DNA from: Terriglobales bacterium
Lineage (GTDB): Bacteria > Acidobacteriota > Terriglobia > Terriglobales > Acidobacteriaceae
Assembly: GCA_035651655.1 (NCBI GenBank)
Contig: DASRFG010000025.1
Coordinates: 124,001 to 188,000, forward strand
Length of the DNA: 64,000 nucleotides
Direction: 5' to 3'
The position numbers and the translations under genes were made by a program. The notes under the pieces were generated by a model that was given only the letters and a program-made list of their open reading frames with translations, did not search any database and was not told the origin of the DNA. Numbering within the stretch: position 1 is the first letter of the stretch; each line of letters opens with the position of its first letter. This document shows, one piece after another, positions 3,870 to 37,800 of the stretch.

Positions 3870-5006
3870 ATGAAGTACCGCCGGGCGGCAGTGGCGCTGT
3901 TCTTTTTGCTTCTCACCAGCCAGTGGATGATCGGGCAGTCCGATCAGAAGCAGCCAAATCAAACTTCCAGCGACCAGGGGGTGCAGGCGCAAGGCCCAAC
4001 TCCGGTGCAGGTGGACCAGACTCAGCCGCCCCCGGATTCAACACCGCCGGCAACTTCAGCCGATGACTCCGCCGACAAAGGCAAGCCCAAGCATGCAGGA
4101 AAAAACAATGTGGACGCCATCGGCAACCGCAGTGTCGGTAACGGCCTCAGCTTCTACTCCATCGAGAAAGAAATCCGCATTGGTAAGCAGTACGCCCAGG
4201 AAGTCGAAGCCAGCGTCAAGTTAGTTCAGGATCCCGTCATTAACGAGTATGTGAACCGCATCGGCCAGAACCTGGTGCGCAACTCCGACGCCAAGGTCCC
4301 GTTCACCATTAAGGTCATTGACACCGACGTGGTCAACGCCATGGCGCTGCCCGGCGGATTCTTTTACGTGAATTCAGGTCTCATCCTCGCGGCCGACGAA
4401 GAAGCAGAACTTGCCGGCGTAATGTCGCATGAGATCGCGCACGTCGCCGCGCGTCACTGGGCCCACGCCATGACCAAGGGCCAGCTGTTGAACATCGCCT
4501 CCATCCCGCTCATCTTCGTGGGCGGCGGCATCGGATACGCGGTGCGCTCGGCCGCCGGCATCGGTCTCCCAATGACGTTCCTCACCTTCCAGCGCAGCCA
4601 GGAAGCTGAAGCCGATTATCTCGGCGTGCAGTACATGTACAAGACCGGATACGATCCCCAAGCCTTCATCAGCTTTTTCGAAAAGCTCAAAGCAAAAGAA
4701 AAGAAGAAGCCGGGATTCTGGGACAAGACTTTCGCTTCCCATCCCCAGACGCCCGACCGCATTGGCAAGAGCCAGGAAGAGATCGCGCGAATTCTTCCCG
4801 CTCGCAATCAGTATGTGGTGAGCACTTCAGAGTTCGACGAGGTCAAGGCGCGACTGGCTGCGCTCGAAAACCGCCGCAAGGGTCTTGATACCGAAAACGA
4901 TAATCGTCCCAGCCTCCGCCGCACCGCCGCCAAGAATAAAGACAAAGACGGAAAAGATGGCAAGGGCGACGATCGTCCCACCCTTAAGCGGCGTACCGAC
5001 GATTAA
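3870..5006 (+). CDS. Secreted M48-family metalloprotease (BepA/YfgC-like)
   Basis: A 378-residue periplasmic zinc protease related to BepA, which assists or degrades outer-membrane proteins. It has a signal peptide (residues 1-22), a low-complexity Gln/Pro linker, a motif IGNRSVGNGLSFYSIEKE before the catalytic domain, HEIAH zinc ligands at 187-191 and the third ligand Glu at about 247 (EAEADYLG). The C-terminus is a charged Lys/Asp/Arg tail. No TPR domain follows, so it is a short form. The ATG at 3870 is chosen over upstream in-frame codons because caggag lies 7 nt before it and the signal peptide then starts the protein. A close paralogue lies at 26610-27743. Confidence 0.93.
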   Translation: MKYRRAAVALFFLLLTSQWMIGQSDQKQPNQTSSDQGVQAQGPTPVQVDQTQPPPDSTPPATSADDSADKGKPKHAGKNNVDAIGNRSVGNGLSFYSIEKEIRIGKQYAQEVEASVKLVQDPVINEYVNRIGQNLVRNSDAKVPFTIKVIDTDVVNAMALPGGFFYVNSGLILAADEEAELAGVMSHEIAHVAARHWAHAMTKGQLLNIASIPLIFVGGGIGYAVRSAAGIGLPMTFLTFQRSQEAEADYLGVQYMYKTGYDPQAFISFFEKLKAKEKKKPGFWDKTFASHPQTPDRIGKSQEEIARILPARNQYVVSTSEFDEVKARLAALENRRKGLDTENDNRPSLRRTAAKNKDKDGKDGKGDDRPTLKRRTDD

Positions 5007-5537
5007 CCAAACCAATGATTAACTTAACCAACGATTGCTCATAAAACCGGGCGGCTGGCGCCCGCTGCTTTAACGCATTGCGGTCTAGATTTCTTCAGTC
5101 GCATGTCTTCCTATCGCCGCTACTCAGCTTTTCCGCCTCCCTTTTCCTTTTCCAGCTGAATTATGCTCGGCAAAAAGCAATTCGGCGGCAGCGGGCTGAA
5201 CGCATGAGACGTTTGCGTTCTTGGAGTGCATCCTTGATTGCATCCAGATTGTTTCTGGTCTCCTCACTCAGCAGCTTTTCTTCGAATGATGGCCGGTGAA
5301 AGTCTGGCCAGCACTCCTCGCCCAAAGTGGCCGCCGCCGCAGCCACGATCTCCAGCAGCCGGCAGCACAGCGTTGTTCAAGGGGAATCTGTAACGGCTTG
5401 TGCGCAATATCACACTGCAAGGTGACGCGGCCCACAGCCGCAGCATCTGGCCGGGTATGAAATTGGACACGCAATTGTAATCGCGCTCACTACGCCATTT
5501 TTGATTGGCCGTGAAATTTCACTCTAGGAGGTGTCCT
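5007..5537. other. Intergenic stretch without a convincing gene
   Basis: About 530 nt between the M48 protease and the universal stress gene. Only short open frames exist. One on the minus strand (5161-5346, 61 codons) has a plausible amphipathic helix but no ribosome site, so I do not call it. No hairpin terminator with a T-run was seen just after the M48 gene. The long 5' region probably holds the promoter of the stress gene. Confidence 0.5.
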
Positions 5538-6482
5538 GTGCCAACTCTCGAAGCGACGAGGACCAGTACCAAGATTTCTGTGAAGAACGTGTTATTTGCC
5601 ACTGATTTTTCCGAAGCCTCCCGCCAAGCTCTCCCCTATGCCATGGCGATTTGCCGTCATTACGGCAGCACGCTGCATGCGCTCCATGTCATACCGGAAA
5701 TGGTTTACCCACTGGCGCCCAGAATGATGGCGCCAATTGCCGCTACACCGACCTATGAGGCCGTACGCCAGGAAGCGCAAGGGGAACTCAGGCGCATGGC
5801 AATTCGCCTGGGGCATATTCCCAACCATAGTCACATCCGCACTGGGAGCGTATGGCAGGCAGTTTCGGAGATCATTCTCAAGGAAAATATTGATCTTCTG
5901 ATCATCGGCACCCACGGTCGCACCGGGGTAGGCAAGTTGCTGGTCGGCTCTGTGGCCGAAGAGATATTTCGCCAGGCGCCGTGCCCCGTGCTGACCGTCG
6001 GGCCGAACGTTTCCGGGAAAGCCCGCTTGCCAATGCTGGGAGGCGAAAGCCTTAACGTTGCGCCAATTTACGTTGAAATCGGTGAAATTCTCTACGCCAC
6101 CGACTTCCGATCAAAAACGCCGGCTGCGGCGGCTTTCGCCGTGTCCCTGGCACAAGAATTTCAAAGCCACCTCACGCTGTTGCACGTCATAGAGAAGCAC
6201 GAGGATTACGGAACACCAGGGCCAGTGGATTGGACGTTGAGCCGGTTGAGTGAACTCGTGCCCGATGATGCTGATCTGTGGTGCTCACCCGAACCGGTCG
6301 TCAAGTATGGCTCACCTGCCGATTGCATCCTGCAGACCGCCTCTGAAAGAAGTGCGGATCTGATCGTGCTCGGCGCGCGGCCTGCGGACGGCCACATGGG
6401 TGCCGCCATCCATCTTCCCTGGGCAACGGCGCACCGAGTGATTGCGCACGCCGCCTGCCCGGTGCTGACGGTTCGTGGTTGA
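5538..6482 (+). CDS. Tandem-domain universal stress protein
   Basis: A 314-residue UspA-family protein with two Usp domains (about residues 12-155 and 180-314). Domain 1 has an intact nucleotide-binding signature of the form G-2X-G-9X-G-S (GTHGRTGVGKLLVGS). In domain 2 the equivalent stretch (GARPADGHMG) has lost the second Gly, so only domain 1 is likely to bind ATP. The GTG at 5538 is taken as start because taggaggtg sits 7 nt upstream; an earlier in-frame ATG at 5505 lacks this. The gene converges on a P-type ATPase gene and shares a terminator with it. Usp proteins act in the cytosol under starvation, oxygen or energy stress. Confidence 0.93.
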   Translation: MPTLEATRTSTKISVKNVLFATDFSEASRQALPYAMAICRHYGSTLHALHVIPEMVYPLAPRMMAPIAATPTYEAVRQEAQGELRRMAIRLGHIPNHSHIRTGSVWQAVSEIILKENIDLLIIGTHGRTGVGKLLVGSVAEEIFRQAPCPVLTVGPNVSGKARLPMLGGESLNVAPIYVEIGEILYATDFRSKTPAAAAFAVSLAQEFQSHLTLLHVIEKHEDYGTPGPVDWTLSRLSELVPDDADLWCSPEPVVKYGSPADCILQTASERSADLIVLGARPADGHMGAAIHLPWATAHRVIAHAACPVLTVRG

Positions 6483-6538: not shown

Positions 6539-8365
6539 CTACTTGCCAAAATCAGTCAAGGTCCTCACTGGCAGTGCCATGCGCACGGCGTTCAACACGG
6601 CTGCGAAATCAATAATCTCCTGGGCGATGGCTCCCTCAAGCGGTGGTAAATAACCCAAGGCCGCCGCCGCCATCCCAACCGCGCTGGCAAACATGCCTCC
6701 AATTGCGCTCTGCAGCGCAATCTTCCGCAGTCGCGCGCCAATATGGAACAGTTCATCTACTTTACCGAGTGACGTGGTAAGAACTACGGCGTCGGCGGCT
6801 TCGGCAGTTATGTCGCTATTCACCCCAAAGGCCACCCCGACGGTGGCCGCCATGAGGGCTGGTGCGTCGTTAATTCCATCGCCGACGAACAATGTGGGTG
6901 CGCTCTTAACCTCCTGCTCAACCCGCTGCACTTTTTGCTCGGGAGTTTGCCCGGCGTGCACTTCCTCGATCCCAACTTGCGCAGCAAAGTAACGGACTTC
7001 AGATTCGCGGTCGCCCGAGATCAGCATTAGTTTCTCGACATTGTGCCGAGGTTTCAGATGGCGGAGGAACGGCTTGCTTTCGCCTCGCGGCACATCATGA
7101 AAGCGTAGCGCGCCGGCATACGCGCCCTCGATGAAAACCAGACACTCCAATCCGCTCACTACCGGCGGCAACGCAAGTTCCTTGTCTATTACTTTATTGC
7201 GCCCCGTGATGCGCACCGACCGACCACCCACCAGGCCTTCAAGTCCCTGACCCGGCTTCTCTGATACCTGGGTTACAGGATCGGAAACTATATGGGCGCG
7301 GCGCGCAGCTCGTAATACCGCTTCCGCCAAGGGGTGCTTGGAATAGCGCTCCAGACTCGCTGCCAGACGAAGCACTTCCTGGCTGTTGAAACCTGACGCG
7401 GGAATGATGTTATCGAGAGTCGGCTTTCCATAGGTAAGCGTTCCAGTCTTATCGAAGATCACAGTACGGCACCGGGAGATCTGCTCCAGCACCGCGGGGT
7501 TCTTGATGATGATGCCGCGCTGCGCAGCCAGCGAAATAGCGCCGATGATGGAGACAGGAATAGCCAGCAGCAACGGGCAAGGCGTAGCGATGACCACCAC
7601 GGCCAGAAACCTGAGTGGGTCGCCGCTGTAAGACCACGCAAGCGCCGCGATCCCGAGCGCGAGGGGTGTGTACCAGGCCCCCAGGCGATCGGCCATGCGC
7701 CGCAAGCGTGGCCGCTTCTGCTCGGTTTCCTGCATGACACGCATAATGCTGGCGTATCGCGAATCAACTGGAAGCTTCTCAGCTCTGATGGTGAGCCCGC
7801 TATCGCCGTTAATTGCACCGGAGAGTACTTTGGAGCCGAGGGTCTTCGAGATCACGTAGGGCTCACCTGTCAGATATGACTCATCCATCGCGCCATCGCC
7901 AGCTGTGACAACCCCATCAACCGGGCAGATCTCATGCGGAAAGACGACCAGTGTGTCGCCGATCGCTATCTGCTCCAGAGAAACATCTGCGATTGCGGAG
8001 CCGCGCTGGCGGTGCGCAATCTGGGGCATGCGTTGAGCCAGAGCATGAAGGACGGATGAGGCGCGACGAGAAGCATATTGTTCCAGGGCGGTTCCACCCG
8101 AGAGCATCAACACGATGATCGAGCCCACCAGATGCTGTCCCATTGCTACCGAGGCCAGGATGGAGATGCCAGCCAGCAAGTCAGAGCCGAAATCGCCAAC
8201 CGCAAGTTTTCGGCCCAAACCTATCAACAGTGGCACCCCTCCCGCTATGAGGGTTACGTACAGGGGAATGAGAAAGAAATCTCTGTGGACGCCGGCAAAG
8301 TAACGGAGGACCAGGTAGGTCAAAATGCTGGTTACGGCCAGAAGAGCTATGTAAGTCTCACCCAA
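6539..8365 (-). CDS. P1B-type heavy-metal-translocating ATPase (TPCP motif)
   Basis: A 608-residue inner-membrane cation pump. Visible elements in order: two N-terminal helix pairs, the actuator TGE (166-168), the transmembrane metal motif TPCP (261-264), phosphorylation site DKTGT (305-309), HP dipeptide (344-345) and GDGIND (495-500). It has no N-terminal heavy-metal-associated domain. The motif is TPCP rather than the CPC of Cu+/Zn2+ pumps, so the ion cannot be assigned; P1B subgroups with TPC have been linked to Ni or Fe. The annotated start is TTG at 8365. The frame stays open to 8446, where a CTG codon lies 8 nt after an aggag sequence, so an N-terminal extension of 27 residues is possible. 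Confidence 0.92.
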   Translation of the reverse strand: MGETYIALLAVTSILTYLVLRYFAGVHRDFFLIPLYVTLIAGGVPLLIGLGRKLAVGDFGSDLLAGISILASVAMGQHLVGSIIVLMLSGGTALEQYASRRASSVLHALAQRMPQIAHRQRGSAIADVSLEQIAIGDTLVVFPHEICPVDGVVTAGDGAMDESYLTGEPYVISKTLGSKVLSGAINGDSGLTIRAEKLPVDSRYASIMRVMQETEQKRPRLRRMADRLGAWYTPLALGIAALAWSYSGDPLRFLAVVVIATPCPLLLAIPVSIIGAISLAAQRGIIIKNPAVLEQISRCRTVIFDKTGTLTYGKPTLDNIIPASGFNSQEVLRLAASLERYSKHPLAEAVLRAARRAHIVSDPVTQVSEKPGQGLEGLVGGRSVRITGRNKVIDKELALPPVVSGLECLVFIEGAYAGALRFHDVPRGESKPFLRHLKPRHNVEKLMLISGDRESEVRYFAAQVGIEEVHAGQTPEQKVQRVEQEVKSAPTLFVGDGINDAPALMAATVGVAFGVNSDITAEAADAVVLTTSLGKVDELFHIGARLRKIALQSAIGGMFASAVGMAAAALGYLPPLEGAIAQEIIDFAAVLNAVRMALPVRTLTDFGK

Positions 8366-19089: not shown

Positions 19090-19170
19090 GCCCCTCCGGG
19101 GCTCGGTTTGTTTGGTGCGCCTACCCAGCGCTGACGCGCTGGGCTAAAGGCTGTTCCGCCCCTGCGGGGC
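19090..19170. repeat. Cluster of three palindromic (REP-like) units
   Basis: Three consecutive hairpins follow the gene ending at 19054: gcccctccggggc (19090-19102), cccagcgc-tgac-gcgctggg (19124-19143, 8-bp stem) and gcccctgcggggc (19158-19170). Composite palindromes of this style are common between acidobacterial genes and probably spread as REP/BIME-like elements. They may also serve as a terminator. Confidence 0.65.
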
Positions 19171-19321
19171 TGGATTCCGGTTACGCGAGCGGTGTGTGAT
19201 CTTCGGAAGATCTCATTCATGGGTGGGAAGCCCGCCAACCCCCGCCTCTAACCGACGCAGATTCTGCCGCGCATGGCGGGCGAGCCGCAGCGCAGTCCGG
19301 TGACGTGGAAGTGCTGGCATT

Positions 19322-30466: not shown

Positions 30467-30474
30467 GAAATCTG
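30467..30474 (+). repeat. 8-bp target site duplication (left)
   Basis: gaaatctg directly before the left inverted repeat. The same 8 bp follow the right inverted repeat at 34833-34840, and both belong to the RHS coding sequence. Confidence 0.92.
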
Positions 30475-30498
30475 GGTAGTGTCCTAAATCTGCGTTGA
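30475..30498 (+). repeat. Left terminal inverted repeat of IS1-like element
   Basis: 24 bp beginning GGTAGTGTCC, an exact complement of 34809-34832. It supplies the stop codon of the truncated RHS 5' part. Confidence 0.94.
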
Positions 30499-30505
30499 TG
30501 CCAAA

Positions 30506-30520
30506 CAGCAAGCGCTTGCA
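30506..30520. promoter_or_regulatory. Palindrome shared with transposase promoter
   Basis: CAGCAAGCGCTTGCA lies 7 nt inside the left terminus. Fourteen of its bases are repeated as the full palindrome at 32836-32851 just before the transposase gene. It could be a binding site for transposase or an element-encoded regulator. Confidence 0.5.
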
Positions 30521-30552
30521 TTCAGCCTTCCGGCGATGCTACGTTTTGGCTC

Positions 30553-30831
30553 ATGGGAAGAAAAGACAACGATCTCAAAGCGCTCCGCGACATGATAGGC
30601 GAAGCGCACGACATACTTCGCACGGTGGAACTTCCTGAAGAGCGGTCCAAGCGAGCTTACGAACTGCTCAGTGCATGTCTTCATCTTGCGGACCACCTTT
30701 TGGAGTTATCTCCGGCTGCGTCCCTTGGCGCTAAGGGCGGAAGTGAGACTGCAAAGCGTGGTTCGGCGTACTTTCGGAAAATCGCATCGATGCGAAAGCA
30801 GAAAAAGGGCGGACGGCCTAAGCCCAATTGA
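30553..30831 (+). CDS. Small helical protein in IS1-like element
   Basis: A 92-residue, largely alpha-helical cytosolic protein. The first 55 residues (LKALRDMIGEAHDILRTVEL and on) form amphipathic helices, and the C-terminus is very basic (RKQKKGGRPKPN), which could bind nucleic acid. The ribosome site is weak. The family is not recognised. It faces the minus-strand tRNA-like gene, whose 3' end is 26 nt away. Confidence 0.58.
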   Translation: MGRKDNDLKALRDMIGEAHDILRTVELPEERSKRAYELLSACLHLADHLLELSPAASLGAKGGSETAKRGSAYFRKIASMRKQKKGGRPKPN

Positions 30832-30856
30832 CACTAGCGTTAAAATAGAAAGTGAA

Positions 30857-30941
30857 CGGAGGGCGGGGGAATCGGACCCCAATCGCTCTGACACGATCTG
30901 CGGTTTATAAGACCGCCCCTAGCACCTGCTAGACGCCCTCC
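30857..30941 (-). tRNA. Class II tRNA-like gene, anticodon UAU, 8/4 fold
   Basis: Folding by hand gives an 8-bp acceptor stem (GGAGGGCG/CGCCCTCC), a D-stem of 5-6 bp with a 4-nt loop AGGT, a 5-bp anticodon stem GCGGT/ACCGC with loop CTTATAA (anticodon UAU at 30909-30907, U33 present), a long variable arm (GATCG/CGATT stem) and a 4-bp T-stem GGGG/CCCC with loop TCCGATT. The discriminator is G73 and CCA is not encoded. 8/4 class II tRNAs are the known allo-tRNA type; G73 plus a long variable arm suggests serine identity, while UAU reads AUA (Ile). U55 of the T-loop is C here. The gene starts 16 nt after the HTH-ImmA/IrrE stop codon, so it is probably in that transcript. Confidence 0.8.
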
Positions 30942-30957
30942 ATTTTTTTACTCCCCT

Positions 30958-32103
30958 TTACTTTTTAACCAGAGACAAATTTGGACGCTTGCCGCGATTC
31001 GATGTGTCCTGTCCCTTCCCTTCGATGCTGGTCATCGTTAAACCAAACATATACTCTTCTAACTCTGAGGGCGGGAGATGAAGAGCACGCGCTAGAGCAC
31101 CTCGTGTGATTCCCTCGCGATAAAGTTCGCTGAGCATTGTTGGTAGTAACTGTGAAGTTTCACGCGGAGCTGAATCAGGCTCAAATGTCCTATACCCACG
31201 CTTCGCGATTTGAATGCTAAGGGTCCGGTATTGCCACTCTGACATCATGCCGACTTCGTGTAATCGATAGTTCAGCGCAGCGACAGATACATTCCAGATT
31301 CTCTTCAGTCGAATCAGATCATCAATTACGGCGAATCGGGGTGAACGGGCAATAACGCTGGCCTTGGGCATGAGAAATGCACCAGCGAAAATGTCCGCTT
31401 CCCGCTCTGCCTCCCGGCCTTGGGGAGAGCTGTGTCGATGCAGAAGCAAATGGCCTAGCTCGTGCGCTGCGTCGTAGCGGCTGCGCTCCGACGATTTGTT
31501 ATTGTTCAAGAAAACAAAGGGAGTATTCTCTCGCCACATAGAAAAAGCATCGACTTCACGCGTATCAATCGCAAGCGAGAAAACGCGAATCCCCTGGGCC
31601 TCCAAGAGATGAACAATGTTGCGGATCGGCATTTCGCCGATCCCCCAGATTTGCCGAATGGCTGCTGCTGCCGTTTCCGGCGATCTCTCACGGCCCAGAT
31701 CAGGCAAGTCAGCCGTGGGCAGTTCAAACTTAGATTCGAGCCAATCATTCAAATATAGGGCAATCGCGCCCTGAGCGAGTGCCATATCCCGGCGCATCGG
31801 CTTCAGTCTGGACAACGAACGGAAACTGGCTACATCGGGACGCGGCCTTTCCAGGTCGCTACCTTGAAAAAATGACGCGGGGAAGCCCAAGACCATTTCA
31901 AGACGACGGCGTGTTTCAGGCGAGGGACAGAACTCGCCTGATTCGTACGCCACAATCGTCCTGAGATCAACGTCAATTGCTTCCGCTAATTCGCTTTTGG
32001 ATAACCCTTTCCGCTCGCGAATCAAAGTCAAGCGGCGAGGGTTAAACTCCTCAGGCGCGTCGCTTGACATTGACAGTGATGTTTGGAGATTGCGGAATGT
32101 CAT
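30958..32103 (-). CDS. XRE-type HTH with ImmA/IrrE metallopeptidase domain
   Basis: A 381-residue cytosolic protein. Residues about 22-75 form a lambda-repressor-like HTH (RLTLIRERKGLSKSELAEA). Residues about 160-250 form an ImmA/IrrE (DUF955/COG2856) zinc peptidase with HELGH at 214-218 and a Glu ligand at 235 (EREADIFAGAF). Such proteins usually sense stress and cleave a repressor or act in toxin-antitoxin-like modules. It overlaps the upstream 221-residue gene by up to 53 nt (an ATG at 32070 would reduce this to 20 nt), so the two are translationally coupled. The tRNA-like gene follows 16 nt downstream. Confidence 0.88.
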   Translation of the reverse strand: MTFRNLQTSLSMSSDAPEEFNPRRLTLIRERKGLSKSELAEAIDVDLRTIVAYESGEFCPSPETRRRLEMVLGFPASFFQGSDLERPRPDVASFRSLSRLKPMRRDMALAQGAIALYLNDWLESKFELPTADLPDLGRERSPETAAAAIRQIWGIGEMPIRNIVHLLEAQGIRVFSLAIDTREVDAFSMWRENTPFVFLNNNKSSERSRYDAAHELGHLLLHRHSSPQGREAEREADIFAGAFLMPKASVIARSPRFAVIDDLIRLKRIWNVSVAALNYRLHEVGMMSEWQYRTLSIQIAKRGYRTFEPDSAPRETSQLLPTMLSELYREGITRGALARALHLPPSELEEYMFGLTMTSIEGKGQDTSNRGKRPNLSLVKK

Positions 32104-32716
32104 CGTTCGGAACCTTCAAAGTATCAGCATCGAACGGCGTTGATCCCAAGATGATCCGCTTGGCCCATCCATCAACTCGTCCCTCTTGGTTCATGCCGAT
32201 CGGAAGGGACAACTCACACCTGAGTTCGCGCTTTACTTCATCGGAATGAATTAACAGCAGCCAAGTAACAATCCCCGTTTTGGCTGTCTGCTCGTATGCA
32301 GCGATGGCCAGTTCCTCATTCGGGAACAGCTTAAGCTGGTTATTGGAAATGTTGCTCTTCATTTGCGGCCCTTTGGGGCATTTGGTGCACGGGTCAAACT
32401 CGCGGTTTCCCGTCGCATCATCGCCAGTCGCGACTGTGATGGCGATCTTCCTATTGTGGTGGTAGACGATCGGAAGCCCACGAGGGTTATCAATGAGCCA
32501 TCCCTCGGGAACCAGGATGTCTCTGGCCGTCTTTATTGTTTCCGCCCACGCAGAAAGTGCAGGGAAAGACGGGGGGTGATGCGGCGTACAGTTAGCTCTC
32601 TGAAGCTGCCCGACCCGCGCGGCGTTTAAGAGCCAGTCTTCCTCAAGGCCGAGATGCGCGAGCTGATTGTGAACGTCGTGTGGCTCCCAGTAGATTTTCG
32701 GATTTGCCAGGGCCAA
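32051..32716 (-). CDS. Partner protein of HTH-ImmA/IrrE module, unknown
   Basis: A 221-residue cytosolic protein. A start region with WEPHDVHNQLAHLGLEEDWL is followed by a block with Trp, Pro and Thr-rich conserved-looking segments (VPEGWLIDNPRGLPIVYHH, VATGDDATG, PCTKCPKGPQM), then a strand-rich C-terminus. Proteins with this VATGD...TKxPKG pattern are, to my knowledge, encoded next to ImmA/IrrE genes in many bacteria and are uncharacterised. It starts at TTG 32716 with aaggaggg about 10 nt upstream. It could be the substrate, toxin or sensor partner of the peptidase; this is inference from coupling. Confidence 0.78.
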   Translation of the reverse strand: MALANPKIYWEPHDVHNQLAHLGLEEDWLLNAARVGQLQRANCTPHHPPSFPALSAWAETIKTARDILVPEGWLIDNPRGLPIVYHHNRKIAITVATGDDATGNREFDPCTKCPKGPQMKSNISNNQLKLFPNEELAIAAYEQTAKTGIVTWLLLIHSDEVKRELRCELSLPIGMNQEGRVDGWAKRIILGSTPFDADTLKVPNDDIPQSPNITVNVKRRA

Positions 32717-32744
32717 AGTTTGGACCCTCCTTAGAATCGTTTGA

Positions 32745-32786
32745 CTTCCTAAAAAGCTACCTCAAATGAGGTTGGTTTATAGGAAG
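32745..32786. promoter_or_regulatory. Nested inverted repeats in divergent promoter region
   Basis: An inner palindrome ACCTCA-AA-TGAGGT (32759-32772) lies inside an outer pair CTTCCTA (32745-32751) and TAGGAAG (32780-32786). The region separates the minus-strand ImmA/IrrE operon from the plus-strand transposase. It is a good candidate operator for the XRE-type HTH protein. Confidence 0.6.
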
Positions 32787-32835
32787 TATATAGACCTAAC
32801 TATTGTTGAAATCAAGAGAAATCGTGATTGACTTT

Positions 32836-32851
32836 CAGCAAGCGCTTGCTG
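32836..32851. promoter_or_regulatory. 16-bp palindrome before transposase gene
   Basis: CAGCAAGCGCTTGCTG is a perfect palindrome 13 nt before the transposase ATG; 14-15 of its bases recur near the left end of the element. It may let the transposase or another DNA-binding protein repress transposase expression. Confidence 0.55.
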
Positions 32852-32863
32852 TATATTGTACGC

Positions 32864-33820
32864 ATGAACTGCGAGACGTGCAACATCGAGTGCCAGCGTT
32901 TCGGTAAGCATCGCAATGGTTTACAGCGCTTCCGCTGTTCACAATGCCATAAAACATTCACGCAAGAGCACCACGCTCTGTTTGCTCCCATGATTCTCCC
33001 TGAAGAAAAAGCTCTGCTGGCAATTCAACTTTTGATCGAAGGAACTAGCATCCGCGCAGTCGAACGCATTACCGGGCTGCACCGGGATACGATCACCCGA
33101 CTGCTGGTCCTTGCTGGCGAGCGCTGCATAGCGCTCATGGACACGCGGATGCGGAATCTGCGGTGCAAGCATGTACAGGCCGATGAAATCTGGAGCTTCA
33201 TTGGGAAGAAACAGCGAAACGTGAAAGTCGAAGACCCCGATGAATTTGGCGACGCTTGGGTATTCGTCTCGCTGGATGCGGAAACAAAGCTGATTCCTGC
33301 ATATGCCGTCGGACGCCGTGACCGTGAAACGACCTATAGATTCCTCACTGATCTTCGGGATCGCATGGCGGAAGAGCATCGCTTCCAAATCACGACGGAC
33401 GGCTTTGTGTTCTACCGTAATGGAGTTGAAGATGTATTCGCTGGACGGGCCGATTTCGCTCAGATGATAAAGTTGTACGGCGATTACGGACAACATGATG
33501 CGGCTGGCCGCTACTCTCCCTCTCCGATGATAGAAACGATAATCAAGATACGGGATGGTCGCCCTGACCTACGCCACATAAGCACCAGCTTTGTCGAGCG
33601 CCAGAATCTCACGATCCGAATGGCAATTCGCAGGTTTACTCGACTGACAAATGCCTTCTCCAAAAAGCTAGACAATCACAAAGCCGCTTGCGCTTTGCAC
33701 TTTGCGTATTACAATTTTTGCCGGATACACAAAAGCCTGCGGATCACGCCTGCAATGGAAGCGGGATTGACAGACCACGTATGGACAATCAAAGAACTGC
33801 TGCAACCCGTTGATAATTAG
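32864..33820 (+). CDS. IS1-like DDE transposase
   Basis: A 318-residue single-frame transposase. The N-terminal zinc ribbon has CETC (Cys3, Cys6) and CSQC (Cys25, Cys28), followed by an HTH-like stretch (TSIRAVERITGLHRDTITR). The catalytic triad is visible: Asp107 (QADEIWSFIGKK), Asp179 (ITTDGFVFY) and Glu245 (SFVERQN), which is the IS1 pattern. Classical IS1 needs a programmed frameshift between InsA and InsB; here both parts are fused, as in the ISMhu11-type subgroup. The ATG at 32864 starts right at the zinc ribbon. By hand count 7 of 23 Ile codons are ATA, unusual for this GC-rich genome. Confidence 0.92.
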   Translation: MNCETCNIECQRFGKHRNGLQRFRCSQCHKTFTQEHHALFAPMILPEEKALLAIQLLIEGTSIRAVERITGLHRDTITRLLVLAGERCIALMDTRMRNLRCKHVQADEIWSFIGKKQRNVKVEDPDEFGDAWVFVSLDAETKLIPAYAVGRRDRETTYRFLTDLRDRMAEEHRFQITTDGFVFYRNGVEDVFAGRADFAQMIKLYGDYGQHDAAGRYSPSPMIETIIKIRDGRPDLRHISTSFVERQNLTIRMAIRRFTRLTNAFSKKLDNHKAACALHFAYYNFCRIHKSLRITPAMEAGLTDHVWTIKELLQPVDN

Positions 33821-33884
33821 CTGTTTCACAATTGAGTTGAACCACTAGGTAAAAGACCCTAAAATAAAACAACCGAGGCAAACC

Positions 33885-34325
33885 ATGTCACTCCGCGCGC
33901 GAGCCGTGGACGTTGCGGACTATATCCTCCTTCGCTTAGGCCCAACGTCTGCAATGAAGTTACAAAAACTCGTGTATTACTCCCAGGCTTGGTCGCTGGC
34001 CTGGACGGACGCGCCTTTGTTTGCAGAGGAAATTGAAGCTTGGTCAGATGGGCCAGTCGTGCGCTCTTTGTATAACAAGCATCGCGGCCGTTATCGGCTG
34101 CCTCGCAGATTTTTTGATGGCGAGACAGAAAGGTTAAATCCAGACCAGCGAGATGTTATTGAAAGGGTTCTTAAGTTCTATGGCCCCAAAGACCCTCAGT
34201 GGCTTAGCAATTTAACGCACATCGAAGAGCCGTGGAAGAATGCGCGTGTTGGCCTGCAAGCGGGCGAGCGCGGCCACAACATCATTCCCAAAGAAGCCAT
34301 GCTGAACTACTACGCCAATCTTTAA
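33885..34325 (+). CDS. Panacea-domain (SocA-like, DUF4065) antitoxin
   Basis: A 146-residue cytosolic protein with the Panacea/SocA pattern: VADYILLRLGPTSAMKLQKL, VYYSQAWSLAW, EEIEAWSDGPVV and a late AMLNYYA segment. Panacea domains neutralise many unrelated toxins and are encoded next to them. The ATG at 33885 has a gagg site upstream. It lies just after the transposase and is followed, 3 nt later, by the candidate toxin gene. Confidence 0.87.
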   Translation: MSLRARAVDVADYILLRLGPTSAMKLQKLVYYSQAWSLAWTDAPLFAEEIEAWSDGPVVRSLYNKHRGRYRLPRRFFDGETERLNPDQRDVIERVLKFYGPKDPQWLSNLTHIEEPWKNARVGLQAGERGHNIIPKEAMLNYYANL

Positions 34326-34328
34326 GCC

Positions 34329-34799
34329 ATGGCGATTGCTCCAGAACACAGACAACCCAAAACTGCTCAGGAAATAGCGCCTCGGCAGGTCAGAACTGGT
34401 GGTGATCCGGGAAGCCTTGATCGAGAAACCATTGCATGGCACTTTCATCGGTTAGATAATCCGCACGCACAGTGGGGCTGGCAGAAACTTAGGCCAGCGG
34501 ACTGGCGGGATATTTTAAGCCACCTGATATCGTTCGAAGGGCTAACGTGGGCCAGGCTAAAGGAACAAGCGGGTGGCAGAAGGCGCGGTACAAATCATCA
34601 TTCCATCGAAATAGCAGAGTTTACGGCGGCTGCACGGCGAAGGTTATCCGAATTACATTTGGACGAGTTTGATTCGCTTTTCTCACTGCGCATCACAAAC
34701 ACCTTGCGCCTTTATGGAATTAGGGATGGAAGAGTGTTACAACTAGTCTGGCATGATCCCCACCACGGGTCTGGACGCGGTGCCTGTCCAACTCAATAA
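34329..34799 (+). CDS. Candidate toxin partner of the Panacea antitoxin
   Basis: A 156-residue protein whose ATG is 3 nt after the antitoxin stop codon. A disordered-like start is followed by a Trp-rich segment (WGWQKLRPADWRDILSHL), and the C-terminus has the pattern LRITNTLRLYGIRDGRVLQLVWHDPHHG. That pattern is typical of small uncharacterised proteins ending in R.WG.R.G..F.ILWWDP.H, often beside antitoxins, and may be an RNase-like fold. Toxic activity is inferred from position and pattern only. The gene ends 9 nt before the right terminal repeat. Confidence 0.72.
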   Translation: MAIAPEHRQPKTAQEIAPRQVRTGGDPGSLDRETIAWHFHRLDNPHAQWGWQKLRPADWRDILSHLISFEGLTWARLKEQAGGRRRGTNHHSIEIAEFTAAARRRLSELHLDEFDSLFSLRITNTLRLYGIRDGRVLQLVWHDPHHGSGRGACPTQ

Positions 34800-34808
34800 G
34801 ATTTGCTT

Positions 34809-34832
34809 TCAACGCAGATTTAGGACACTACC
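34809..34832 (-). repeat. Right terminal inverted repeat of IS1-like element
   Basis: An exact 24-bp complement of the left end at 30475-30498. It is followed at once by the 8-bp target duplicate. Confidence 0.94.
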
Positions 34833-37800
34833 GAAATCTGACCAAAACAAGCCGTTGGCTTAGCACGACTAATACTTGGCTGGACACGGTGAACACCTAT
34901 GATGATCTGGGCAATCTCTTGTCAACCAAGGATCCGGGACAGCATACGACAACGTTTGGCTACTCGGATCGATGGGCAAATGCCGCCTGTGTGGGAGCAG
35001 CCAACACTCGCGCGTATTTAACATTGACCACTGACCCGCTCAGCCACAGGACACAACGCAGCTACTATCCTTGCACGGGGCTACCAGCAAGCAATCAGAA
35101 CGAGAATGATCTCCAGGCTGGCCGGGCGGGCACAACATTTGCCTATGACCTAATGAATCGGCGCCTGACAGCTAATTACCCGGACGGTGGGCAGATAAGT
35201 GACACGTACGGCGACGCCATCCCCGCGAGTATCACGCAGACTAGTTTGATCGACAACACTTCAGGCCTCAACCTAGTGCATACCAAAGTATTAGACGACC
35301 TCGGGCGTGTGAAACAGGTCCAATTGCAAGATCCTGACTGTGCTGGCCCCGTCAATGTTGACTACACGTATGGTTACGATCCAGCCGCACACAACCGCTT
35401 CACTACGGTGTCAAACCCTTATTGCGGAATCACCGATCCAACATATGGCATCACTACAACACGTTACGACGCTCTCGACCGTCTTTTTCGAGCAGTGCCG
35501 ACGGATGGCTCAGATACCGCGAATAACATTTCTACGGTATATGCGGGAAACGTGGCGACGGCCACAGACCAAGTCGGGAACAAGAGGCAAACGGTGTCAG
35601 ACTCGTTGGGTCGCCTGATCACAGCTTGGGAGCCGAACTCTAGCGGCGCATTCGTAAATGAAACCGATTACGTGTATGACACCCTAGACAACCTGACCAG
35701 TGTCACCCAAAAGGGCAACGCAGCCTCTTCGAGCTGGCGCACACGCTCTTTTGCTTATGACTCGCTCTCGCGCCTGACCAGCGCCACCAACCCCGAATCA
35801 GGGACGACCACGTACACCTACGACGCCGACGGAAATGTCCTTACCAAAGTAGCCCCCAAACCAAACCAGACCAGCTCAGCCACAGTGACCGCGACATATG
35901 GCTATGACGCCGATCACCGCCTCACCCAGAAAAGCTATTCCGACACAACTCCGCTTGTGAAGTACGGCTACGACGGCATTTCGCCGGCCGGTTGCACCGC
36001 AGGCTTGACGCCTACAAACCCGGTCGGGTTGCGCACGGTCATGTGTGATGGATCGGGCACGAGTTCCTGGAGTTACGATCCCATGGGGCGGGCGGTAACC
36101 CTACAGCGCACGGTAAACGGATTCACGAGATCAGCTACCTATCAATACAATCAGGACGGGTCACTTAACAACCTCGCCGGCTTTGATGCGGGGCAGTTCC
36201 TGTACTACGGCTACAATGCCGCCGCCAGGCCGGTGTCCCTGAGGGATCGAAGCAATAATTACGTGAGTTCAGCTCACTACTCTTCAGACGGACAGATCAC
36301 CAGCGCGCTCTACGATTTCTGTCCAAACGGCTTGAGTTGGTGTGGTGGCGGTTTTGCTGGCCTCAGCATAACCAACAGCTACAACAAGCGACTGCAACCG
36401 GTGATTCTCTCCGGCGCCTCGCCCAGCCAGACAGTTTTCAGTCTTAGCTACGATTTTCATCTCGGGACGGCGAACAATGGCAACGTTTATCAAATTGTGA
36501 ACAATCGGGACAATAATCGCACCCAAACATTCACATTTGATCAGCTGAATCGTGTGGCCTCTGCCTCCAGCCAGGGCCCGCTCTGGGGTAATTCATACGT
36601 ATATGACGCCTGGGGTAACCTGCTCCAAAAGAATGTCACCAAGGGCACTTCGGAAACCCTGAACGTGGCGGTCAGCGCCAAGAACCAGATCGTTGGGGCG
36701 ACATACGACGCGGCCGGTAACATGATCAATGATGGTGGGGGGCACGCTTTTACTTACGATGCCGAGAACCGCCTGCTTACCGCTGGCGGATACACCTACA
36801 CTTATGACGGCGACGGTGAACGCGTCAAAAAGACCAATGGCGCCACCGGCAAACTGTACTGGTATGACCCCCAGGGTAATGCGCCGCTGGAGACTGACCT
36901 GGCAAACAATACAGCTAACTGGTACATGTTTTTCAACGGAAGGCTGGCCAGCTTAGGTAACACCGGACTTGCTTACTACTTTTCGGATCACCTAGGCTCG
37001 TCCAGCGTGATTACAAACGGGACGGGCACCATTCAAGATGAATCCGACTACTACCCCTTCGGCGGCGAGCGGGTAATCACTAGCGCCACGGGACAACGGT
37101 ACAAGTTTACCGGTAAAGAGAGAGACACGGAATCCGGCCTGGACATGTTTGGTGCCCGCTACTACGCCAGCAGCCTCGGCAGGTTCATGCAGACCGACCC
37201 TAAGGCTAAGAGCGCTCACATGCTTAACCCGCAGAGTTGGAATCGTTATGCGTACACGCTCAACAATCCGCTAAAGTACGTCGATCCCGATGGCATGGAT
37301 GTTGTTTTGGCAGCGAACCTCAGCGCGAAAGACCGCGCCTACATCGTGAACAACCTTGCCCGAATGTACGCGACTCCTGCTGGCAAGGCGATGCTCCAAC
37401 GAGCTGACGCAAGCAAGTTCACAATAACCGTGGGAACGGGACACCTTGGGCGCACCGATCTAACCAATGCGCCTCCTGGGACAGTGGTCTTTGGGGGGCA
37501 AACCAAAGTTGAAGGTGGAACCACTACCTACGGAGTCGCACAAGCAGACGGACACAAGATGCTTGTCGCTCAGAGTCCGGACTCGCCGACAGCGCCCCCG
37601 ATACAAGTCACTATCGACAAATCTCAGGCTGCTGAGATCGGGAAAGACCCGGCAACAGTGTTTGCTCACGAGCTTGGCGGCCACACAGCTGACGTGCTGA
37701 ACGCCGCCGAGAGCAATCCCAATCAGTTCATCGACAGCGTGAATCCCAAAGATGAAAGCAGCTCCGAAGCTGCCGAGAAGGCGCTCGGTAAGCTCCCGAA

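Follow-up and report, generated by a model that had tools for sequence, protein, structure and literature searches.

Why would a bacterial transposon carry a tRNA gene, and which codons would that tRNA read? The question is raised by an allo-tRNA gene with the anticodon UAU at positions 30857-30941 of a 64,000-nucleotide stretch of a Terriglobales bacterium genome (contig DASRFG010000025.1, positions 124,001 to 188,000; the whole stretch is called the window here), where the gene lies inside an IS1-like transposon. Four features read from the sequences bear on the answer: the tRNA family, the bounded element, the segregation of codons in the transposases of related elements and the match between those codons and the anticodon. 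Together they suggest, with somewhat better than even confidence, that the passenger tRNA decodes private AUA codons in the transposase of its own element, with tRNA and codon locked and travelling together. A wider reading is more tentative, and we would put it slightly short of evenly balanced: acidobacterial IS1595 and IS1 transposons may carry a private genetic code, in which a serine-type tRNA reassigns AUA (UUA in a sister clade) at a small number of conserved positions in their own transposase while host reading stays standard, and in which transposition is self-limited by competition with host tRNA.

The allo-tRNA family and its transposons

The gene at 30857-30941, on the minus strand, is a real 8/4 class II allo-tRNA with anticodon UAU and discriminator G73. 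ARAGORN calls it tRNA-Ile(tat), and its minimum free energy fold (-43.1 kcal/mol, z -4.04, a stability equalled by 1 of 200 shuffles) has an 8-bp acceptor stem, a 4-bp T-stem, a 4-nt D-loop and a long variable arm. The anticodon loop is CUUAUAA, the terminal base is G, and the linker between acceptor and D-stem measures only 0-1 nt, unlike that of a usual tRNA, both in the fold and in a 41-row alignment of relatives. A preliminary description of this DNA, made from the letters without database searches, had assigned this class, anticodon and discriminator and had placed the gene 16 nt from the end of an HTH-ImmA/IrrE open reading frame (ORF), which ends at 30958; all of this holds. It had also looked to covariance models for support, and the Rfam tRNA-Sec model (RF01852) matches 30857-30942 with 56.4 bits (E 1e-8), above the gathering score of 47. 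That match is due to shape; tRNA-Sec identity was ruled out because the anticodon is UAU, whereas that of tRNA-Sec is UCA. Another, higher-scoring tRNA-Sec match (66.8 bits), known by its score and not by its anticodon, lies elsewhere in the host genome. The window allo-tRNA itself has a single match within its own 4.07-Mb genome.

Relatives were sought in several ways. At the DNA level, 11 of the 200 genomes searched within the order had matches, including short ones, and nine of the sequences found were used to build a covariance model. This model returned 38 matches of at least 56 bits, in 36 of 398 genomes of the family; below that score there are a few matches at 46-53 bits and then a bulk at ~40-45 bits. 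Among 396 genomes of the phylum, matches above 56 bits are confined to the same family. The RF01852 screen could not single out relatives, some match being present in 299 of 299 genomes. Seven stretches turned up in a pattern scan across named genomes, all in metagenome-assembled genomes (MAGs) of Acidobacteria and one titled 'Terriglobia subdivision3', and the same kind of scan in a viral set found one contig.

The stems covary within the family. Both sides change in 16 of 29 pairs in an unfitted MAFFT alignment of nine relatives, in which 87.1% of cells are paired (shuffle mean 76.7; 47-57 when slid). With 41 relatives aligned to the model, an alignment biased toward that model, both-side changes occur in 25 of 28 pairs and 91.0% are paired. 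The 8-bp acceptor and 4-bp T-stem are 97-100% paired and show compensatory changes on both sides, as the preliminary description had expected of homologues. The TTATA core of the loop is kept in 35 of the 41 rows. Of the 38 closer relatives, 34 have G as discriminator, three have U (L109, L044, L122) and one has A (L135); 14 further UAU or UAA tRNAs called by ARAGORN (L196-L255) all have G73, with a 5' start of GGA, GGG or GGC. The discriminator of tRNA-Leu is A73. With their G73 and long variable arm the element tRNAs look serine-type, an assignment based on the identity rules of the tRNAs for Ser, Ile and Leu.

Some relatives show variant features. The anticodon loop of L045, L048, L049, L120, L122 and L124 appears by eye to be 8 nt long, AUUUAUAC, with UUAUA retained; frameshift suppressors are known to have 8-nt anticodon loops. 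The 8/4 relatives L115 and L126 have the anticodon loops CUUACAA and CUGCAAA, with no UUAUA. At L042, L047, L112 and L129 the stop codon of the upstream ORF falls within the D-stem, at tRNA nucleotide 13.

The carrier of the window tRNA is an intact IS1-like transposon of 4,358 bp (30475-34832). It interrupts an RHS-repeat gene at 30474/34833 and is bounded by 24-bp terminal inverted repeats that match perfectly (30475-30498 on the plus strand, 34809-34832 on the minus strand), with copies of the 8-bp target-site duplication GAAATCTG on its left (30467-30474) and right (34833-34840). Its boundary score is 24, and none of 410 dinucleotide shuffles across 41 loci reaches 12. The transposase (32828-33820, plus strand) is matched by Pfam DDE_Tnp_IS1 (1.4e-7; 32.4 bits, cut-off 24.1) and, below the cut-off, by NCBIfam transpos_IS1 (6.5e-26; 91.5 bits, cut-off 100). 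The IS1-like carrier named in the preliminary description is borne out.

Transposons of the IS1 and IS1595 families have DDE transposases, inverted repeats, an 8-bp target duplication and passenger genes. The elements described here share all of these and differ in that the passenger is a tRNA matching the transposase's own codon. Such carriage is typical for these tRNAs. Bounded elements, with inverted repeats and an 8-bp duplication, surround the tRNA in 16 of the 41 loci, most of them with IS1595-type transposases; at a lower score threshold, 11 of 16 additional loci that have a long-arm tRNA with anticodon UAU or UAA show bounds enclosing both transposase and tRNA. An IS1595 transposase is present in 21 of the 41 loci, with L045 and L048 above the NCBIfam IS1595 cut-off, and an IS1-like one in four (at L118 a 68-aa fragment only). 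The preliminary description had thought the carrier unusual, a view that these counts do not sustain, and a transposon link had already been guessed in a review (PMC7609411).

Codon segregation in the transposases

The transposases are rich in the codon that the tRNA would read. ATA occurs at 12.9 per 1000 codons in the IS1595 and IS1-like transposases versus 2.7 in ORFs at a distance beyond 3.5 kb, host codon usage being drawn from the ORFs of the fetched loci only. A rate of 6.85 per 1000 for ORFs near the tRNA was left unused, real and spurious ORFs being mixed in it.

The ATA codons of the IS1595 transposases fall on fixed columns, and their position was compared between transposases with and without a nearby tRNA. 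The comparison rows were 30 IS1595 transposases of the family, chosen irrespective of tRNA, six alphaproteobacterial IS1595 transposases and 60 loci that a profile search retrieved from 348 genomes. Around the 30, model R1 alone was searched over ~1.5 kb on each side and matched none; elsewhere the search used R1 and ARAGORN over ~4 kb where the contig allowed. Several of the 60 profile-search loci have long-arm tRNAs beside the transposase, mostly of 7/5 form with anticodon UAU, and another set has UAA. From L196-L229, eight of 34 rows were left out of the tests (L198, L202, L204, L206, L210, L211, L223, L224) on account of cut contigs, broken frames or the lack of a clear tRNA.

In the 29 IS1595 rows with a tRNA(UAU), a set that includes L115 with its UAC-like loop, ATA and the standard isoleucine codons hardly meet. 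The nine columns with at least three ATA hold 93 ATA and no ATC or ATT, and the 16 Ile columns (at least ten ATC/ATT) hold 263 ATC/ATT and one ATA. Under a permutation that preserves the codon counts of each row, the 36 mixed pairs observed compare with a shuffle mean of 1,011 and a minimum of 859 over 2,000 shuffles. Thinning to 15 rows below 65% identity leaves 15 mixed pairs versus 245 (minimum 172 over 5,000 shuffles).

A sister clade shows the same arrangement with a different codon. Seven rows make up the UAA clade, among them L229, in whose 5-kb locus no tRNA was found. Here 14 of 15 TTA fall at two of the ATA columns of the UAU rows (MNL[codon]DV and S[codon]KHL), none of the 186 other Leu codons does, and mixed pairs number five versus 71.5 expected (minimum 49). 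In 56 control rows without such a tRNA the codons mix much as synonyms do (ATA, 517 pairs versus 630, minimum 389; TTA, 1,100 versus 1,102). The control codons TTA, CTA, GTA and AGG in the UAU rows give mixed pairs inside the shuffle range, and AGG-AGG pairs lie slightly above all shuffles (47 versus a maximum of 45). Judged by these distributions, AUA in the UAU group and UUA in the UAA group of IS1595 elements are not interchangeable with their standard synonyms.

Single columns follow the anticodon. Column 500 has ATA in 24 of 31 UAU rows and TTA in all six UAA rows, and either codon in none of 65 rows without such a tRNA; the corresponding counts at column 492 are 22 of 31, 0 of 6 and 0 of 65. 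For column 99 the counts are ATA in 20 of 30 UAU rows and TTA in six of six UAA rows. A DNA-level cause for the fixed ATA found no support, as flanking synonymous sites vary freely. The tree groups the UAA rows into a single supported clade, and the two shapes of UAU tRNA are interleaved in it. Also nested with the UAU rows are L205, L213 and L214, three rows without a tRNA, whose ATA counts are 1, 2 and 2 versus a UAU mean of 3.84. In the cargo clusters ImmA, DUF5343, HigBA-like and DUF3467, ATA is scarce and no clear segregation was seen by eye.

The window's own transposase has 24 Ile-box codons: ten ATC, seven ATT and seven ATA, the last at codons 101, 214, 235, 238, 241, 251 and 300 (first bases 33128, 33467, 33530, 33539, 33548, 33578 and 33725). 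Across the eight rows of its clade, some of the others being partial transposases, ATA is segregated and by this measure not interchangeable with its synonyms (20 mixed pairs versus 126, minimum 92); it coincides with ATC or ATT at a few columns. In 15 further IS1-like rows the mixing of ATA is within the shuffle range (88 versus 120, minimum 67).

Meaning of the codon and competing explanations

The proposed explanation is that AUA codons in the transposase are read by the element tRNA, in competition with the host's AUA-reading tRNA-Ile. If the tRNA is expressed and charged with serine, correct transposase would be made only when it competes with the host tRNA. In IS1595-type relatives the inserted residue would most likely be serine, the sister clade would use UUA with a serine-type tRNA of UAA anticodon in parallel, and the IS1-like clade of the window probably has the same lock of tRNA and codon. 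With both tRNAs present, each AUA could be read two ways; should only one reading give active transposase, activity would fall steeply with the number of AUA codons, leaving the element dependent on its own tRNA and its jumping self-limited.

Serine is the best guess for AUA in the IS1595 elements. With tRNA-bearing rows as reference, it scores best as the meaning of AUA (1.0), and Ile scores -13.0. At column 455, 15 of 23 non-ATA rows have Ser, Thr leads at column 222, and column 492 has Thr or Asn in the UAA clade. The guess takes these observations together with G73, the long variable arm and the reported behaviour of two allo-tRNAs of S. bohemicum, which in E. coli insert Ser at CUC and UUA, both codons for Leu (PMC7609411). 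Earlier estimates with other reference sets (A best with I at -13.2; T 1.0, S 0.4, I -8.6) gave way to the present scores, and an AlphaFold2 model of the IS1595 transposase (mean pLDDT 52.7) was not used. The preliminary description had offered Ser, or another residue, at AUA for the window tRNA; the idea of Ser gains indirect support from the sister IS1595 elements but none from the window's IS1-like clade, where AUA stands at Val/Ile-like columns.

Several observations weigh against a serine-inserting tRNA locked to the transposase codon. UAU allo-tRNAs were inactive in E. coli translation (PMC7609411). Because TilS is present in the host, host tRNA-Ile(LAU) is expected to read AUA too, as Ile. 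With all rows as reference, Arg (2.2) and Thr (0.9) lead the AUA scores, with Ser at -0.3 and Ile at -6.4, and at the two UAA-clade columns Pro and Ala lead, with Ser at -2.6 and Leu at -2.4. Columns 99 and 492 are aliphatic in all non-ATA rows of nine near IS1595 relatives without the tRNA, and column 99 has ATA or TTA in six of 64 rows without such a tRNA. Each of the eight rows excluded from the tests carries ATA in at least one of five key columns, with no UAU tRNA recovered; the contig ends within 0.5 kb at L206, L210 and L211 and within 1.7 kb at L198, L202 and L204, the L223 transposase has two internal stops, L210 has a tRNA-Gln call and L204 a weak R1 match (27.5 bits). The anticodon register is ambiguous in members with the AUUUAUAC loop, L045 being called tta by ARAGORN. 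The anticodon loop of L115 is UAC-like, and since its transposase has no GTA codon, that anticodon is without codon support in this single case. Among the cargo, the 92-aa protein swaps ATA for ATC or ATT at two columns.

The remaining objections concern the IS1-like elements. The ATA columns of the window clade are Val/Ile-like (log-likelihood V 10.2, I 6.6, S -5.7), and a clear tRNA is present in only four of eight rows (the window, L109, L130 and L289). Column 252 (E[TV][ATA]SK) has ATA in 18 of 23 IS1-like rows (L286-L305 and the window) even where there is no local tRNA, and the codons around it vary at synonymous sites. No hidden tRNA was found in the one-ATA IS1-like elements by ARAGORN and model R1 in 20 loci or by Rfam in six of the 20. 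A hairpin scan of IS1-like elements likewise found none, and it did not detect the tRNAs that ARAGORN calls at L130 and L289 either. The tRNA-codon link is therefore proposed for the window element with less confidence than for the IS1595 elements, because its columns are Val/Ile-like, some overlap with ATC/ATT occurs and four of eight rows have a clear tRNA.

Codon gating without recoding would keep AUA as Ile and UUA as Leu and make translation of the transposase depend on the element tRNA. A precedent is bldA of Streptomyces, a chromosomal tRNA-Leu(UAA) that gates TTA genes and leaves the amino acid unchanged. Both cases use a rare codon to tie expression to one tRNA; in the elements described here, by contrast, the tRNAs look serine-type and the codon appears to behave non-synonymously. 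The identity of transposase codon and element anticodon would fit gating, as would the aliphatic residues at columns 99 and 492 in near relatives without the tRNA and the Val/Ile-like ATA columns of the IS1-like elements. It is harder to reconcile with the near absence of AUA from Ile columns within these genes. In the 17 Ile columns set from rows without tRNA, AUA accounts for 1 of 232 in the UAU rows versus 18 of 522 (Fisher p 0.011); stricter cut-offs, leaving six and two columns, give 0 of 113 and 0 of 52 and are not significant (p 0.18 and 0.55). The minor ATA columns are also polar (Ser at 455, Thr at 222), and the tRNAs have G73 and serine-type ends, with no features of Ile or Leu tRNAs. 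Gating seems unlikely on these grounds and still deserves some weight.

Two further explanations would deny the tRNA a role in reading the transposase. It could be a non-decoding RNA of the toxin-antitoxin (TA) cargo, acting as an RNA antitoxin, a decoy or a processing signal, and it does lie beside or between many kinds of TA and defence genes, with an upstream ORF ending inside its D-stem at four loci; a TA link was also suggested in PMC7609411. The tRNA stays constant while cargo varies among elements, its TTATA core is kept, and its anticodon fits the transposase codon, all of which make a non-decoding role improbable. A functionless hitch-hiker, with the ATA pattern a matter of clade history, would agree with the stems that look broken by eye in L037/L047, L126 and L128. 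Covarying stems, a codon pattern that persists after thinning, scrambled synonymous sites around ATA and a separate clade with the UUA/UAA version leave this explanation very little room. Decoding of the transposase's own AUA codons by the passenger tRNA is the reading we favour.

Parts of this picture have precedents. Allo-tRNAs of Acidobacteria are known with an 8/4 branch, a long variable arm, SerRS identity elements and UAU as a leading anticodon (Mukai et al. 2017, via PMC7609411); in PMC7609411 a link to transposable elements or TA systems was suspected and function was speculative. The tRNAs described here agree in all of these features and in occurring in Acidobacteria, and they differ in lying within bounded transposons and in an anticodon tied to fixed transposase codons. 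As with phages and plasmids that bring their own tRNAs and with code-locked E. coli, a recoded synthetic strain in which TCG and TCA are reassigned (PMC12269064), a mobile element's tRNA would compete with host decoding; unlike that synthetic case, the present one is a natural transposon whose own gene appears to be locked to the tRNA it carries. The literature searched, which lacked most subscription papers, contained no description of a tRNA carried by a transposon and matched to codons of the transposase. The Codetta screen for alternative codes left transposon proteins out of its input (PMC8629427), and such cases would therefore be invisible there. If the reading is true, a natural mobile element gives a sense codon a new meaning in its own gene and nowhere else, and allo-tRNAs gain a concrete, testable client in the transposase of the carrier element. 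Natural, evolved pairs of tRNA and codon could also be of practical use for recoding AUA or UUA.

Cargo and neighbouring features

Besides transposase and tRNA, the window element carries two sets of cargo genes and a small protein. RmrA (30958-32103, minus strand) has an HTH and an ImmA/IrrE protease domain (PF06114, 3.6e-26; PADLOC RmrA, 4.5e-146), and the toxin partner RmrT (32051-32716, minus strand; 221 aa) adjoins it (PADLOC RmrT, 2.2e-57). RosmerTA is an anti-phage TA system formed by RmrT and an ImmA-domain RmrA (PMC10440598); with both proteins matched by PADLOC, the window pair is an ordinary member and not a source of novelty. Downstream of the transposase, a SocA/Panacea antitoxin domain protein (33885-34325, plus strand; PF13274, 3.6e-18) is followed by a 156-aa protein (34329-34799, plus strand) presumed by position to be its toxin partner; the latter has no Pfam match and a weak one to NCBIfam MAG6450 (0.0062). 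The 92-aa small protein (30553-30831, plus strand), without a Pfam match, is convergent with the tRNA. Its relatives have the same placement in L042, L107 and L109, and one lies within the L130 locus.

Cargo at the other loci is varied. Neighbouring genes include Gp49/RelE-like, PBECR2, Abi_2, Zeta, Beta/PD-Lambda-2, DUF3800, DUF5343 and DUF3467 members according to PADLOC and Pfam, and Pfam gave no match for 20 of 40 neighbouring proteins scanned.

The viral contig IMGVR_UViG_3300036781_000806 (L146) has a UAU allo-tRNA-like sequence at ~6347-6431, which ARAGORN does not call. It is flanked by a 240-aa ORF (DUF5343-like by eye) and a 161-aa ORF, with a 1,295-aa ORF near, and no IS1 or IS1595 transposase was found in the 13 kb of sequence covered there. 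In the MAG 'Terriglobia bacterium isolate subdivision3' (L140), an IS1595 transposase at 4986-5930 has five ATA codons, including MNL[ATA]DV, and a UAU tRNA lies 1.9 kb from it (7829-7914). At two IS1595 loci, L201 (3711-3785) and L208 (3681-3756), a second tRNA-like gene, called tRNA-Ala, adjoins the UAU tRNA. The Acido-Lenti-1 RNA (RF01687) is found in the window at 19124-19171 (plus strand), and also around transposase copies at L218 (7966-8011), L220 (2158-2203) and L291 (10505-10554).
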